Shown here one piece after another: positions 8,687-21,737 of a stretch of DNA of 22,813 nt. Position 1 is the first letter of the stretch, and each line of letters starts with the position of its first letter. This DNA is from a virus. The DNA is taken from the IMG/VR virus record IMGVR_UViG_3300004282_000010, positions 1 through 22,813 of that record. One strand, written 5' to 3'. Under the pieces are notes generated by a model that was not told where the DNA came from, did not search any database, and saw nothing but the letters and a program-made list of their open reading frames with translations. The translations under genes were made by a program, and so were the position numbers.

Positions 8687-9175
8687 ATGAAAGGCGATAT
8701 TATTATTTATAGACCGACTGGTATTATAGGAAAATTAATACAGTTTATTTCCAAGGATGAATTTATTCACGTTGCTATGTTTATTTCAAATGACAAAATA
8801 ATAGAAGCAACATGGAGAGGAATAGAGATTAGCAAGTTTAAGCTAGATAAGGGAATAGAAATTTATTCTTATACTATGGATGAATATAAACGAGAATTGC
8901 TGATACAAACAGCAATAAGTAAGAAAAATAAAAAATATGATTATCCATTGTTGTTCACAATAATGGGCGAAAAATGGTTTAAATTGAGGGCATATGATAG
9001 CAAGGAAGCTTTTATTTGCTCAGAATTTATAAGGGACGTATACAATGAAATTGGAATAGAGATACACGAAAAAAACAATCCAACACCACAAGAATTAAGG
9101 GATAATTTGTTTAAACTTGCAAAAGATATAACCAGTGATGTATCAATTTTTAGTTATTCGAAGGTGATCGTATGA
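8687..9175 (+). CDS. YiiX/DUF830-like permuted papain-fold hydrolase
   Basis: The 162-residue product begins MKGDIIIYRPTGIIGKLIQF and continues with FIHVAMFI (His28), IIEATWRG (Glu40) and AFICSEFIRDVY (Cys111). It then has NPTPQEL, the usual last signature. The His-before-Cys order is that of the circularly permuted NlpC/P60 group (YiiX, YebB, lecithin retinol acyltransferase-like). Members are cysteine hydrolases or acyltransferases acting on peptides or lipids. No signal peptide is present, so a direct cell-wall role would need help to exit the cell. The His-Glu-Cys set looks intact. GGAGGAATAAAGG precedes the start. Confidence 0.75.
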   Translation: MKGDIIIYRPTGIIGKLIQFISKDEFIHVAMFISNDKIIEATWRGIEISKFKLDKGIEIYSYTMDEYKRELLIQTAISKKNKKYDYPLLFTIMGEKWFKLRAYDSKEAFICSEFIRDVYNEIGIEIHEKNNPTPQELRDNLFKLAKDITSDVSIFSYSKVIV

Positions 9176-14890: not shown

Positions 14891-15811
14891 ATGGCATATA
14901 CAGATAGAGAAGATCTAAATTATCTAGGACAGTTATTTTTAATTGGTCAAAATCAAACCCCATTTCTAAACATGATAGGTGGCGTGAATGGTGCCAAGAC
15001 TTGCAAAAGTTTTGCATTTCCAGTCGCTCAGCCTTATTCATTGACTAGTGCTAGTCAACCAGCCATTACGGAGGCTGCAAGTGTTAGTGGTCAAACTCCC
15101 GGAACTTATACAAGGGGTCAAGATTATAACACAGTACAAATTTTTCAAAGGGCATATAGTGTGTCTTATGCGAAACAGTCTGCATATGGTGAAATATCTG
15201 GATTATCTATACTTGGTGATCAAGTTGTTATGGACGAAATGGACTTCCAGAGGCAAGCAGCATTAAAACAAATTTCTATTGACATGGAATTTTCATTTTT
15301 GCAAGGAACATATCAACTAGGTAGTAATGCAACAACAGCAGCAAAAACAAGAGGATTAAAAAATGCAATTGCAACAAGTACGGTAGCCGGATCAAGTGCG
15401 TTATTAACTAAAGCAATGATAAATGAAGTATTGAGAGAAATGGCAACAAATGGAGCTATTTTTGAAAACATGGTTATACTTGCTAATGCATATCAAAAAC
15501 AAGTTTTAACAGATATCTATGGTTATGCTCCTGCTGATAGAAGTGTTGGTGGCGTGAATGTTAAACAAATAGAAACCGATTTCGCAATGTTTGGTATTGT
15601 TTATGCTCCACAAATGCCAACAGACGAAATTTATTTTACAGACATATCCGTTTGTGCTCCTATGGTTCTACCAGTTGGAAATCAATTAATTTTGGATGAA
15701 GAAAAGGCATATGTTGGAGCATCTAAAGGCGGTCAAATTTATTGTCAAGCTGGAATAGATTATGGTCCAGAAGAATACCACGGATCGATAACAGGTTTGA
15801 AAAATACGTAA
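14891..15811 (+). CDS. Major capsid protein (SU10/DUF5309-like HK97 fold)
   Basis: The 306-residue protein matches the SU10-type capsid pattern. It has an N-terminal YLGQLFLIGQNQTPFLNMIGG, PGTYTRGQDYNTVQIFQRAYSVSYAKQSAYG as the E-loop/P-domain start, a long helix (DFQRQAALKQISIDMEFSFL), RGLKNAI, and the C-terminal LPVGNQLILDEEKAYV and YGPEEYHGSITGL. Position between scaffold and head-tail genes agrees. No protease gene lies nearby and no cleavable N-terminal delta domain is obvious, consistent with a scaffold supplied separately. It is richer in Ala, Thr and Gly than its neighbours, as expected for a highly expressed structural protein. Start ATG follows AGGAAGTGTTAACGT. Confidence 0.87.
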   Translation: MAYTDREDLNYLGQLFLIGQNQTPFLNMIGGVNGAKTCKSFAFPVAQPYSLTSASQPAITEAASVSGQTPGTYTRGQDYNTVQIFQRAYSVSYAKQSAYGEISGLSILGDQVVMDEMDFQRQAALKQISIDMEFSFLQGTYQLGSNATTAAKTRGLKNAIATSTVAGSSALLTKAMINEVLREMATNGAIFENMVILANAYQKQVLTDIYGYAPADRSVGGVNVKQIETDFAMFGIVYAPQMPTDEIYFTDISVCAPMVLPVGNQLILDEEKAYVGASKGGQIYCQAGIDYGPEEYHGSITGLKNT

Positions 15812-15828: not shown

Positions 15829-16245
15829 ATGATAAATATGATGGGAATACAGCCAGAATTAAGGCGTTTTTTGGAGACTATGAGCAAGGCATTGGCTGGA
15901 GATTTAGTCTTTAAATGCACTCCTGCAACTGTAACTAGTGCTGTGATTACTGGAGCATGGACAAGAACAGTAGTTATTACATTAGAGACAGCAAGCGGAC
16001 AGGTTCACGAATGGTTCGACAAGGCTATTACGACAGGTGTTAGCATAGCAGATACTAGCAGTTTAGGAACTGCAACAATAGCAAGTACTACTCTAACATT
16101 TGTCAATGGAAAAGCAACTGTAGTTATTACCGGATCGGCTCATGCATGGGCAGATACAGAAACAGATACCCTTACAGTAGCACAGGCAACAATTTTGGGT
16201 TATACAGTAGCCTCTAAAACAAGTGTAGAAACATTTGCAGCATAA
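15829..16245 (+). CDS. Probable capsid decoration protein, Ig-like beta domain
   Basis: The 138-residue product has a short helical N-terminus (IQPELRRFLETMSKALAG) and then strand after strand rich in Val, Thr and Ser (TVTSAVITGAWTRTVVITLET, ATIASTTLTFVNGKATVVIT, DTLTVAQATILGYTVASKTS). This looks like one Ig-like or similar beta-sandwich. Right after the major capsid gene, such proteins usually decorate or staple the capsid surface. GAGGTAAAAATTTT precedes the ATG. A hairpin at 16246 follows immediately. The role is inferred from fold type and position. Confidence 0.62.
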   Translation: MINMMGIQPELRRFLETMSKALAGDLVFKCTPATVTSAVITGAWTRTVVITLETASGQVHEWFDKAITTGVSIADTSSLGTATIASTTLTFVNGKATVVITGSAHAWADTETDTLTVAQATILGYTVASKTSVETFAA

Positions 16246-16270
16246 AAATAGGCACAATACGTGCCTATTT
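16246..16270 (+). terminator. Partial terminator or attenuator after the decoration gene
   Basis: AAATAGGCAC (16246-16255) and GTGCCTATTT (16261-16270) form a perfect ten-bp stem with a five-base loop AATAC. Only three T end the stem and GCAAATTG follows, so readthrough is likely. It would lower expression of the downstream genes relative to capsid and decoration proteins. Confidence 0.6.
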
Positions 16271-16289
16271 GCAAATTGAAAGGAGATTT

Positions 16290-16505
16290 ATGAATAAAAT
16301 TTTTTATGGAAATGGTCAAGAAATAGTTTGGAATCCTAATAAAAACTGTAGATTATGCAAATTTACAGATGGGAAATTTGAAACTAATGACGATGAAGTT
16401 ATACAAACTCTTGAGTTATTAGGATATGAAAAATTTGAAACTGACATTATAAAAGAGCAAGAAATAAAAACAAGTGAGATTAAGAATAAAAAAAAGATTA
16501 GGTGA
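16290..16505 (+). CDS. Small hypothetical protein, 71 residues
   Basis: The product begins MNKIFYGNGQEIVWNPNKNC and continues CRLCKFTDGKFETNDDEVIQTLELLGYEKF, with a Lys/Glu-rich tail. The plan (short strands, LCKFxxGxFETxDxExxxxLxxLGY) is familiar to me from small proteins in phage head modules, but no role is established. The ATG at 16290 follows AAAGGAGATTT; the upstream in-frame TTG lies in the terminator stem and is rejected. It has one CxxC pair (CRLC). Confidence 0.6.
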   Translation: MNKIFYGNGQEIVWNPNKNCRLCKFTDGKFETNDDEVIQTLELLGYEKFETDIIKEQEIKTSEIKNKKKIR

Positions 16506-16522
16506 AAAGATCAGGTGATTAG

Positions 16523-17695
16523 ATGTCTTTCAACGATTATATCGGCGTTCCACATAAGATAAAAGAGTTATTAGACTTACTTGAAGAGCTTAAGACTTTT
16601 GATTATATTAATTTTGATCAGAATCCAATTAATTCAGATACTACTAAAATTGGAAATACTTATTTTGATGTAGATAATGGTACATTATCAGTCAAATTAA
16701 GTACAGATGTAACAATGCAAATAGGTCAAGAGACGCATGTAAGAGCTGTTAATAAAACAGATTCTACGATACTAAATGGAAAAGTTGTTTATATCTCCGG
16801 AGCAACTGGAAATCGACCTAAAATAGAACTAGTTGAATCAACAAACCTAGCAATTGATTGTGTTTTAGGGCTTGCAACTGAAAACATTGCAAAAAATGAG
16901 TATGGTTATGTTTGCATATTTGGAATTGTAAGAGGACTTAACACGCAAGGAATAGCAGAAGGAACACGTTTATATGCTTCTACTAGTGGTAATTGGTCAA
17001 TAGCACAACCTATTAATGGGTATCGTAGGTTTTGGATTGGTACCGTTATAAAAGAGCATGTTAGCGATGGTTGGATATTGGTTAATATAAGGGAAATTCC
17101 ATATATGTTTGGAGATATTACTAATGGAAATTACGCAATGTTTGAGACGGACGGAACATTAAAACTTGTTGGAACATCTACTGTTTTTGATGATTTACCC
17201 CCGAAAATGATAGCGACAAGCAGGATACCGGCTGTAAATAATCCAACATTAACAACTTTTTTGGGAAATATACAACAATATACTTTTTCAGTTAATGACT
17301 ATGTTGCAAATAACTTTGAAATTCTTCATAAATATAAAGAAGGTTCAACCTTAGAAATGCATTTACATTGGGCAAGTAATGGAGCTGAGTTAGTAGATAA
17401 ATATTTTAAGGTTGAAATTGAATATACTATAGCAAATGCAATGAGTCAATTTCCTGCTACTGCTACATTAACAAGTGAAATAACTATACTAGCAAATACA
17501 TTAAATAGATCTCATTATGTTAGTCCAATTGGAACTATTTCAATTGCTGAATTAAAAATTGGAAGTGTTATATTGTTTAATATAAAAAGAATAACTAGTG
17601 TTGGAACAGCACCAACTAGCAATCCTTTTTTTCTTCAAGTTGGGTGCCACATAGAAATAGATACAATTGGAAGTAGAACAATGTATTTGAAATAA
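16523..17695 (+). CDS. Beta-rich virion surface protein (probable capsid fibre/decoration)
   Basis: The 390-residue protein has an N-terminal helix (IKELLDLLEELKTFDYINF), then TYFDVDNGTLSVKL and a repeated-strand domain (about 65-200) carrying MQIGQETHVRAVNKTDSTILNGKVVYISGATG. That unit is found in many phage structural proteins near head genes. The last 160 residues look like a separate beta-sandwich (LHKYKEGSTLEMHLHWASNG, YFKVEIEYTI, THEN Ser/Thr strands). No enzymatic motif is seen. Location between the capsid and the head-tail connector genes, not near the tail tip, suggests a protein displayed on the head. The coding strand is unusually balanced in Thr, Ala and Gly for this genome. Confidence 0.6.
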   Translation: MSFNDYIGVPHKIKELLDLLEELKTFDYINFDQNPINSDTTKIGNTYFDVDNGTLSVKLSTDVTMQIGQETHVRAVNKTDSTILNGKVVYISGATGNRPKIELVESTNLAIDCVLGLATENIAKNEYGYVCIFGIVRGLNTQGIAEGTRLYASTSGNWSIAQPINGYRRFWIGTVIKEHVSDGWILVNIREIPYMFGDITNGNYAMFETDGTLKLVGTSTVFDDLPPKMIATSRIPAVNNPTLTTFLGNIQQYTFSVNDYVANNFEILHKYKEGSTLEMHLHWASNGAELVDKYFKVEIEYTIANAMSQFPATATLTSEITILANTLNRSHYVSPIGTISIAELKIGSVILFNIKRITSVGTAPTSNPFFLQVGCHIEIDTIGSRTMYLK

Positions 17696-17719
17696 TCAAA
17701 AAAATGAGGTGACAATAAC

Positions 17720-18265
17720 ATGTCAATACCAAGAATAACGGAAATATTAGAAAAAATTGTAAACTTAACAACAGGAAATGTAAATGTTGATATTATAGAT
17801 AAAAAAATAAAAAGTAGTGCAACAAATACTAGACCAGCCAACACTACTGCTTATACTGCAAATGATGTTGTTGGAGCGGATCCGGGTGCGAACTTAACTT
17901 TTGCGAGTGTTGGAGTAGCAGGGCAAGGAATAATTTTATTAAAAGCATCTTTAAGAATAGATGTCGCTGCGATACCTAGTGGTATGTTAGGTTTTAGGTT
18001 GCATCTGTTTAATGCAGCACCTACGGCAATAACGGATAATTTAGCTTTTAATGTTATTGCTGCGGATAGATCTAAATATTTAGGATATATAGAATTTCCA
18101 ACTCCTGTAGATTTAGGAGATACATTATATACACAAATAGAAAATCTTACATTTACAACAACGTTGGTTACTACTAGTTTATATGGAGTGCTTGAAACTC
18201 TTGGAGCATTTACGCCAAGTTCTGCTACTGTAAAAGAAATTACTATAAGTGGAGTTGATGCATAA
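17720..18265 (+). CDS. Beta-rich structural protein of the head cassette
   Basis: The 181-residue product has a short helical anchor (MSIPRITEILEKIVNLTTGN), a linker, then RPANTTAYTANDVVGADPG and strands through GIILLKASLRIDVAAIPSGM, GFRLHLFNAAPT, SKYLGYIEFPTPVDLGDTLY. I recognise this TTAYTANDVVG...RLHLFxxxP...YLGYI pattern from uncharacterised structural proteins in several phages. It is probably a beta-sandwich exposed on the virion. GAGGTGACAATAAC precedes the start; the stop overlaps the next start by one base, linking it to the PKD/DUF285 protein. Confidence 0.6.
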   Translation: MSIPRITEILEKIVNLTTGNVNVDIIDKKIKSSATNTRPANTTAYTANDVVGADPGANLTFASVGVAGQGIILLKASLRIDVAAIPSGMLGFRLHLFNAAPTAITDNLAFNVIAADRSKYLGYIEFPTPVDLGDTLYTQIENLTFTTTLVTTSLYGVLETLGAFTPSSATVKEITISGVDA

Positions 18266-19254
18266 TGCGAAGTTATTTGTTTAATAAACCAAAAACATTA
18301 CCACACGAATCTATTTGGAAAACTGACAATGCAGGAACTAGTAACAACAATCAAATAACATTGCCATTAACATCTACTGGAACTTATAATATGGTTGTAG
18401 ATTGGGGAGATGGTAGCAAGTCGAATATTACAGTTTATAACTCTCCATTAATTACACATACTTATCCAGCAATAGGAACATATACAATTAAAATATATGG
18501 AGTATGTAATGGATTTAGATTTAACAATGGTGGCGATAAACTCAAAATATTAGAAGTTAAAAGATGGGGTAAGGATTTTAGGCTTGGAAATGATGTGTCA
18601 TATTTTTATGGATGCTCGAATTTAGTGTTAAATAATGTAGAAGATACCTTAAATTTAAGTGGAACAGTAAGGCTTACTAATTGTTTTCGAAATTGTACAA
18701 GTATTACAACTATAAGAAATATAAATAGATGGGATTTAACTGCTGTAACAACCTTAACTACAATGTTTTATGGTGCTTCCAGCTTTAATGATAATATTGG
18801 AAACTGGAATATTCCAAATGTTACGTCTGTAAACGCTATGTTTCAAGGGGCAACAAACTTTAACCAGCCTATAGGATCATGGAATATGGGAAATGTGACG
18901 GATATGTCATACATGCTCTTTCAGACAACAAACTTTAATCAATCTATTGGATCATGGAATATAGAAAAAGTTGCAACGATGGACTACGCTTTGTATGAAC
19001 TAACTTCATTTAATCAAAATATAAGTAACTGGAATCCAATAGCATTAACAACTGCGGTTATGGTTCTATATGGTAGTGTATCGTGGTCTACTACAAATTA
19101 TGATGCGTTACTTATAAGTTGGGCGGGTAAAACAGTAAAAAATAGTGTTGCATTCAGATGCAGCTCTAAATATTCGGCTGGTGCCGCTGCAACCGCTAGA
19201 GGAGTTTTGACAGGTACTTATTTGTGGACTATAACAGATTTAGGACAGGTGTAA
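18265..19254 (+). CDS. PKD plus DUF285 (BspA-like) repeat protein
   Basis: The 329-residue protein begins with a PKD-like domain: MVVDWGDGS (about 43-51), THTYPAIGTYTIKIYG (64-79). It continues with at least four roughly 24-residue DUF285 repeats (about 110-270) of the type F-x-x-x-I-G-x-W-N-x-x-NVT-x-M-x-x-MF, such as NDNIGNWNIPNVTSVNAMFQ and NQPIGSWNMGNVTDMSYMLF. It ends with a short domain closing WTITDLG. PKD and DUF285/BspA-like repeats are typical of cell-surface adhesins. Here no signal peptide or sortase motif is present, so it should be a virion component. It may bind host or mucosal surfaces from the head, an inference from domain type and from its place between capsid and connector genes. 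Confidence 0.72.
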   Translation: MRSYLFNKPKTLPHESIWKTDNAGTSNNNQITLPLTSTGTYNMVVDWGDGSKSNITVYNSPLITHTYPAIGTYTIKIYGVCNGFRFNNGGDKLKILEVKRWGKDFRLGNDVSYFYGCSNLVLNNVEDTLNLSGTVRLTNCFRNCTSITTIRNINRWDLTAVTTLTTMFYGASSFNDNIGNWNIPNVTSVNAMFQGATNFNQPIGSWNMGNVTDMSYMLFQTTNFNQSIGSWNIEKVATMDYALYELTSFNQNISNWNPIALTTAVMVLYGSVSWSTTNYDALLISWAGKTVKNSVAFRCSSKYSAGAAATARGVLTGTYLWTITDLGQV

Positions 19255-19267
19255 GGAGGGAATTTGA

Positions 19268-19822
19268 ATGATAATTTCTGTAGCTGACATAAAAACATTA
19301 TTAAAAATATCTGATAATTCTCTAGATAGCATATTAAATTTAGAAGTGCCTATGGTTCAAGAAAGTATTTTGAATTTTTTAAGAAATAAGTTTAAAACAG
19401 TTTTATATTTAAGTAGTAAAACATTAAGTTTTAGTAGTCATTCAATTACTTCTAGTTCAGACAATTTTATAACATCTGGACTAATTAATGGTAACTATTG
19501 CATAGAAGGAAGTAATTTTAATGATTCATTTGTAACTGTTACAAATGTTGCTGCTAGTACATTAACAGTAACCGAAACATTAATAACAGAGTCAAATGAC
19601 AACAATATATCTTTATCATTTGTAAAGTTTCCTCTTGATTTAGGCTTTATTTTAAGCCAAATGGTATCATTTAACCTTAATCAAAAATATGGGGTTAAAT
19701 CTGAGTCGTTTTCTAGATATTCAGTTTCATATGGAGCTGATGATGGGAAATATATTGCTGGATATCCAAATTCATTAGTTAGTGGACTTCTAAAATATAG
19801 GATGGTGTATAATGATTACTGA
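19268..19822 (+). CDS. Head-tail connector protein (gp6/SPP1 gp15-like)
   Basis: The product (184 residues) has the connector plan: IISVADIKTLLKISDNSLDSILNLEVPMVQESILNFL as the N-terminal helices and FILSQMVSFNLNQKYGVKSESFSRYSVSYG as the later helix and loop. A beta-rich insertion (about 50-115, SHSITSSSDNFITSGLINGN, SFVTVTNVAASTLTVTETL) separates the two halves, making it longer than minimal members near 100 residues. Such proteins form the ring below the portal. AAGGAGGG and a following AATTTGA precede the ATG. Confidence 0.78.
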   Translation: MIISVADIKTLLKISDNSLDSILNLEVPMVQESILNFLRNKFKTVLYLSSKTLSFSSHSITSSSDNFITSGLINGNYCIEGSNFNDSFVTVTNVAASTLTVTETLITESNDNNISLSFVKFPLDLGFILSQMVSFNLNQKYGVKSESFSRYSVSYGADDGKYIAGYPNSLVSGLLKYRMVYNDY

Positions 19823-20858: not shown

Positions 20859-21737
20859 ATGGGCGTAGAAGCATATTTGCCAGCTGCAACACCAAGGAAT
20901 TTATTACTGGGTGCTGGTGCTGTTTATTTTAATTATGGAGAACTTACAGAAGCTTTAATTGGTGCTACTAGGGGAGGTTCAACTTTTACAGTAGAAAGAG
21001 ATATAAGGCAGATTGAACAAGACGGAACATTTGGACCAGTAAAAGGTCTTAGAAGGAAAACGAGGGTTGTTCCAATTCTAAAGGTAAATGCAATGGAGCT
21101 ATCCATAACCACATTACCTAAGTATTATGGAGGAATGACGGTTGACCAAACAAATGTTAATTATGATAAAGTAACTGAAGATATTGAACTTGTAGACGCA
21201 GATTATTTGACCAATATTACCTTTATTGGAGAGACTCAGGATGGACAAAATGTAATTATCATTGTAAAAAATGCTTTGGGTGATGGAGCTTTAGAATTAG
21301 CAATAGAAGACAAAAACGAAGCAGTGCCAGAGGTACAATTTACAGGTCATTACTTAGATAGTGCGTTAAGAACGGTTCCGTATGAAATAAGGTTCCCTAA
21401 AGATAATGTTAGTGATACAACAGCGCCTACGGTAACGTGTGTACCTGATGATGCTGCTACTGGAATATTAGTTGGTGCAAATGTTGTTATGACATTTAGC
21501 GAAGCAATTGCAAGTGGTGCTATAAATACAGATAACTTTACATTAATGAAGGCAAGTGATGGGGCAATTATAGCGGGTGCATTAACTTATAATTCGTCTC
21601 AAACAATAGTCACATTTAATCCAACATCCGACTTATCGGGTGCTACTGCTTATATAATGACTATAGGTACAGGAGTAACAGACGTAAAAGGCAATAAATT
21701 AGCAGCTACAAACGTATTTAATTTTACAACGGCGTAA
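20859..21737 (+). CDS. Major tail tube protein with C-terminal Big_5 domain
   Basis: The first 180 residues match phage tail tube proteins: PRNLLLGAGAVYFNYGEL, STFTVERDIRQIEQDGTFGPVKGLRRKTR, then strands. From about residue 187 a linker DTTAPTVTCVPDDAATG leads to an Ig-like Big_5 domain (VMTFSEAI, NFTLMKASDG, YNSSQTIVTFNPTSDLSGAT, VTDVKGNKLA). Such C-terminal Ig domains decorate the tail surface and may aid weak contact with the host wall or carbohydrates. AAAGGATGATATAA precedes the start. A terminator-like hairpin at 21749 follows, consistent with high expression of this gene relative to downstream ones. Confidence 0.85.
   Translation: MGVEAYLPAATPRNLLLGAGAVYFNYGELTEALIGATRGGSTFTVERDIRQIEQDGTFGPVKGLRRKTRVVPILKVNAMELSITTLPKYYGGMTVDQTNVNYDKVTEDIELVDADYLTNITFIGETQDGQNVIIIVKNALGDGALELAIEDKNEAVPEVQFTGHYLDSALRTVPYEIRFPKDNVSDTTAPTVTCVPDDAATGILVGANVVMTFSEAIASGAINTDNFTLMKASDGAIIAGALTYNSSQTIVTFNPTSDLSGATAYIMTIGTGVTDVKGNKLAATNVFNFTTA

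Follow-up and report, generated by a model that had tools for sequence, protein, structure and literature searches.

The window analysed here is the whole 22,813-nucleotide stretch (22.8 kb) of IMG/VR virus record IMGVR_UViG_3300004282_000010, a low-GC contig of siphovirus type from an uncultured tailed phage. The subject is the run of five open reading frames (ORFs) at 15829-19254, between the gene of an SU10-type capsid protein and that of a gp6-like connector (Table 1), all five of which are present as an earlier note on this DNA had listed them. From position 14891 the order is capsid protein, proteins of 138, 71, 390 and 181 residues, and a PKD-DUF285 protein of 329 residues, followed by the connector, a head completion protein, an HK97-gp10-like protein, a tail-terminator-like protein and a tail tube protein with an Ig domain. 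The length of 71 residues previously given for the small ORF agrees with an internal ATG start (16290-16505); read from a TTG the product has 78 residues (16269-16505).

Table 1. Features of the capsid-to-connector interval and its borders (positions in the window)
Feature	Position	Strand	Evidence or description
Major capsid protein, SU10 type, anchor of comparison	14891..15811	+	PF17236 5.5e-58; phrog_1328 8e-45
138-residue Ig-like decoration protein	15829..16245	+	tag A (GIQPELRRFL) residues 6-16, helix 9-22, then beta-sandwich
Perfect 10-bp hairpin AAATAGGCAC-AATAC-GTGCCTATTT	16246..16270	+	directly 3' of the 138-residue gene
71-residue conserved small protein	16290..16505	+	BLAST matches in many SU10-type relatives
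390-residue putative display protein	16523..17695	+	probable tag A 1-22, cement-like beta domain 24-200, variable tip 206-390
181-residue protein	17720..18265	+	tag B (MSIPRITEILE) and portable beta-rich body, residues 33-181
329-residue PKD-DUF285 repeat protein	18265..19254	+	25-residue repeats ~137-262, C-terminal cap
gp6-like head-tail connector, right slot border	19268..19822	+	PF05135 2.1e-5; phrog_1236 1.6e-19

The interval was compared across 80 viral relatives of the capsid protein (49-68% identity). Its gene content is very different among them, and in this comparison the capsid-to-connector slot is hypervariable. No comparable cassette was found in the related-capsid phages Bernal13, B22, BigBern1 and Dulem 32 or in a Domibacillus prophage, and a search of the capsid protein against genomes gave three distant matches only. 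The nearest relatives, L008 and L128, have capsid and 138-residue proteins 62-66% identical to those of the window (64-66% for the 138-residue protein). Where the window has the DUF285 gene, both encode a protein of 318-341 residues with 23-residue repeats, the start of which lies within the end of the 181-residue homologue, as in the window. These 23-residue repeats were considered as DUF285 homologues and rejected, the profile comparison giving a probability of 0.6%; they are taken as unrelated replacements. The 390-residue protein is 78% identical to its L008 counterpart over residues 1-205 and 28% identical over residues 206-390. Replacement of the DUF285 gene together with divergence of the 390-residue tip is the trace to be expected of swapping of exposed parts. 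The comparison of relatives over 16523-19254 that the earlier note had proposed thus shows the slot retained in the nearest relatives and its contents exchanged. In L136 (7727-9572), the region corresponding to the DUF285 gene of the window encodes concanavalin A-like lectin domains (Laminin_G_3, 1.5e-15, in a protein of 225 residues).

In most relatives the protein encoded first after the capsid gene opens with a short N-terminal motif, xGxxPxLRxxL or xRNPxLRxFx, here termed tag A, whatever body follows. The bodies are unrelated to one another and include Ig-like domains, GHDHDG fibre stems and poly-Thr/Ser tails. A profile of 19 seed N-termini was run over 7,560 ORFs, 176 of which start directly behind a capsid gene. 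At E<=1 it recovered 25 N-termini beyond the seeds, each distinct and each directly after a capsid gene, and after one iteration 51 of 55 matches lay downstream of a capsid gene at a distance of no more than 2.5 kb; the sequences counted are related and are not independent events. With the iterated profile at least one tag A gene is present in 57 of 75 loci, and several of the remaining loci carry the tag by eye. Two tag A genes occur in some relatives, e.g. L038, L039, L050 and L052. Over 92 capsid loci, 48 small post-capsid genes (45-190 residues; L022, L025, L026, L028-L031, L034 and others) end in a Thr/Ser-rich tail such as TTTTTTTTTTTSTTTTTT, typically with the tag A motif first; the tails are possibly an O-glycosylated brush or a length-variable repeat.

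The 138-residue protein belongs to this family, having the N-terminal tag directly behind the SU10-type capsid gene (E 0.005 against the tag A profile, 0.0009 after iteration). Its AlphaFold model (predicted local distance difference test, pLDDT, 87.7) has an N-terminal helix, opened by the tag, and then an all-beta body. Against PDB the model matches Ig/Fn3-type domains at E 0.002 or worse with a template modelling (TM) score of about 0.5, which is of low significance; on the model and these matches the label 'Ig-like' given earlier can be kept. As modelled, the protein fits the pb10/Hoc kind of layout, an Ig-like beta-sandwich with a separate helical part. It has no match among the phage records searched. 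The hairpin that follows its gene has a perfectly paired 10-bp stem, a loop of 5 bases and no T run; a hairpin after the first post-capsid gene is also found in L006, L013, L015, L018 and L027, and none in L008 or L128. It may act as an attenuator, lowering downstream expression relative to the capsid and 138-residue genes. The 71-residue protein occurs in many relatives whether the cassette is present or not, with 42% identity in the cassette-less Domibacillus prophage.

The N-terminus of the 390-residue protein is YIGVPHKIKELL; that of L008 is YIGVAPKIKELL, and that of L128 is YVGIEPKLKEIF, there on a different body of 205 residues. Of the first five non-self matches of a profile of these three N-termini, four are post-capsid genes with tag A, and on these sequences the protein probably carries tag A. 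It falls below the cut-off of Phage_cement_2 (PF09956) with 18.6 bits against 24 (E 0.0025), and a relative in phage zth2-2 scores 18.1 bits to the same family. Relatives of the middle domain directly follow the capsid gene of Acinetobacter phage phiAC-1, and in zth2-2 lie between portal-like and capsid-like genes (the record is unannotated and the neighbours were read from sequence). Pattern scans confirmed no relative of the N-terminal half in viral contigs, which is weak evidence of absence as the scan missed the known L008, and found none of the tip in viral contigs or phage records, again weak evidence of absence. A sequence search of solved structures gave no match for either the 390- or the 329-residue protein. 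The weak match to Phage_cement_2 and the good conservation of the 138-residue protein would suit beta-rich proteins that are mainly capsid-stabilising cement without an adhesive role. This is improbable, since cultured relatives of the same capsid family (Bernal13, B22, BigBern1, the Domibacillus prophage) do without the cassette, which is therefore not generally needed for stability, and since rapid divergence is restricted to the 390-residue tip.

The 181-residue protein opens with a different motif, tag B (MSxPRxTEILE), which is found in 19 of the 75 loci. Genes with tag B encode 104-423 residues and lie between the capsid gene and the connector. In L134-L138 the match to the 181-residue protein is limited to the first 25 residues. 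Rhizobium and Synechococcus phages have its body behind other N-termini, in genes that adjoin those for pectin-lyase-fold and fibre proteins. As the N-terminus alone is shared in some cases and the body is shared with other N-termini in others, the protein consists of a tag and a portable body.

The 329-residue protein is a clear DUF285 protein (PF03382, 6e-74, 245.9 bits against a cut-off of 25, in three stretches), with tandem repeats of an internal period of 25 residues. The PKD domain also reported for it scores E 0.013-0.019, below the Pfam cut-off; the motif WGDG...HTYPxxGTYTI is present and is conserved in relatives, so that the DUF285 part of the earlier description is firm and the PKD part sub-threshold. 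Its AlphaFold model is of low confidence (pLDDT 59), at which a fold search is not meaningful. The ATG of the gene shares bases with the stop codon of the 181-residue gene (TAATG), an overlap suggestive of translational coupling and of the two proteins acting as partners. The earlier note had called DUF285 repeats on a phage head an unusual way to adhere; a relative is encoded in 104 of 50,697 phage records, which does not bear out rarity of DUF285 in phages. In L086 (1838-3211) a tail-terminator-like protein (phrog_176, 3.8e-8) is fused to DUF285 repeats, by its sequence a natural precedent for DUF285 display on virions. In addition, particles of the Aureococcus virus, a giant algal virus, contain DUF285 proteins (PMC7507832). 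The varied contexts of PKD-DUF285 genes point to a portable exposed module, the placement of which on the head in this phage rests on gene order. It could instead be a non-structural moron product acting in or on the host cell, as DUF285 is known in bacterial surface proteins and no virion-docking tag was detected in the 329-residue protein. The protein has no hydrophobic N-terminus fit for a signal peptide or anchor, which disfavours a cell-surface moron, and its start lies within the stop of a gene inside the late structural run, where relatives have another repeat protein at the same overlap; such a role is accordingly quite unlikely.

Amino acid composition had been cited as a further sign of exchange between phages. 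Thr, Ala and Ser together make up 22-41% of the four beta-rich cassette proteins and 12-19% of the terminase, portal, scaffold and MuF proteins, so the difference from these neighbours stands. It disappears against the capsid (25%), major tail (26%) and connector (26%) proteins, and the 71-residue protein has only 8%. Richness in Thr, Ala and Ser was consequently rejected as evidence of exchange, given that the capsid, tail tube and connector proteins are similarly rich in them; exchange itself is upheld by the swapping within the slot and by the tag tracking with the capsid gene. The major tail tube protein (20859-21737) has a C-terminal bacterial Ig-like domain (Big_5, 5e-20), which implies Ig-type display on the tail as well. 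Upstream of the terminase genes, 8687-9175 encodes a possible C92/NlpC-like peptidase (PF05708 5e-6, PF00877 1e-5).

Taken together, the interval is fairly probably a modular cassette for display on the virion surface. The 138-residue and probably the 390-residue protein would dock on the assembled SU10-type capsid through the N-terminal helical tag A and leave the beta-rich body exposed. The 181-residue protein would use tag B to dock elsewhere on the head or neck, and the PKD-DUF285 protein, translated in overlap with it, would be exposed alongside as an adhesin-like solenoid. Exposed bodies and tips would be exchanged between phages, and tags and slot borders kept. Display of the cassette on head or neck is likely, and the 329-residue protein would share that location. 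The earlier note had argued from gene position for the capsid rather than the tail tip. Surface display gains from the shared N-terminal tag that tracks the capsid gene; placement of DUF285 on the head does not, as the protein has neither tag and its relatives occur in neck and tail contexts.

Several observations weigh against this reading. The window ends within the tape-measure gene, so that the tail-tip genes lie outside it. The 329-residue protein ranks 2385 of 7550 for tag A, and neither tag was found in it. PKD-DUF285 genes stand elsewhere in neck or tail contexts, as in L086 and in L089, where the gene is behind or next to the tape-measure gene, and they also occur in large phages. Relatives of the 181-residue body are found in or beside genes annotated as tail fibres, and the 390-residue middle domain recurs in phage proteins with tail or tail-fibre annotation. 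Scored against the tag A matrix on its own, the 390-residue N-terminus is 302nd of 7,550 (top 4%). One alternative arrangement has only the 138- and 390-residue proteins on the capsid, and lets the 181-residue and DUF285 proteins form a fibre of the neck or collar, where head and tail join. The pair of genes borders on the connector genes, the two tags are different motifs, and the tail terminator fused to DUF285 in L086 is a neck-end protein. Position is not fixed by gene order alone, and tag B genes are single or multiple and of varied order before the connector; a neck fibre is on balance somewhat unlikely.

For the display cassette, the most likely use would be reversible, low-specificity attachment to glycans of the bacterial host surface or matrix before the tail engages, the beta-rich ends, including the DUF285 solenoid, binding weakly at many points to the surface of the host cell or its matrix. 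Binding to mucus is described for Hoc and other Ig-like capsid proteins (PMC13370021, PMC7602432), and the cassette might likewise, as the earlier note suggested, bind animal mucus in the manner of bacteriophage adherence to mucus. Binding to bacterial capsule or S-layer in which the head makes contact is a precedent of equal weight, head-borne binding or head-first contact being described for RcGTA (PMC10218006) and HFTV1 (PMC9973310). A role of that kind is at least as likely as adherence to mucus, which is rated very unlikely and was not retained as the default reading; a ligand on the bacterial host or in its matrix is the safer assumption. A broader proposal, held tentatively and at slightly less than an even chance, is that many siphoviruses with SU10-type capsids use two N-terminal tags as a plug-in system, in which tag A would bring any protein that has it onto the head, and tag B onto head or neck. 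This phage would carry a DUF285 adhesin by that means, and many relatives bare poly-Thr/Ser brushes. If this is true, a short tag on Ig-like, fibre-stem, poly-Thr/Ser and other bodies would explain the fast swapping of head-borne binding proteins. Tag A is then a testable candidate docking peptide for SU10-type capsids, and a search for the tag finds such display proteins where domain searches show nothing.

Ig-like capsid decoration proteins are already known. In T5 pb10 a helical N-terminal domain binds the capsid and an Ig-like domain after it is exposed (PMC5292684), and the 138-residue protein is modelled with the same layout of helix and Ig-like domain. No sequence relation to pb10 was found in the phage records searched, and the putative docking tag of 10-20 residues is here reused on many bodies. 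T4 Hoc, an adhesive or sensing fibre, similarly combines a conserved capsid-binding part with a variable exposed part (PMC10385173), but Hoc docks C-terminally and varies its Ig domains, whereas the tag considered here is N-terminal and its cargo is of unrelated folds. The head spike of RcGTA is a beta-rich fibre anchored by ~10 N-terminal residues that binds the host capsule (PMC10218006, PMC7296036); RcGTA differs in having a separate spike base protein, and the likeness is one of description. SPP1 gp12 and phi29 gp8.5, compared from their description in a review (PMC7602432), are head fibres of Gram-positive phages and are thought to aid attachment; they are collagen-like or coiled-coil and do not form a swap cassette. 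Among the DUF285/BspA-like/PARCEL repeat proteins (PF03382, TIGR02167; PMC2996958) the 329-residue protein is a clear member by sequence, and it differs from them in being encoded in a phage head module, in the capsid-connector interval, without a hydrophobic N-terminus.

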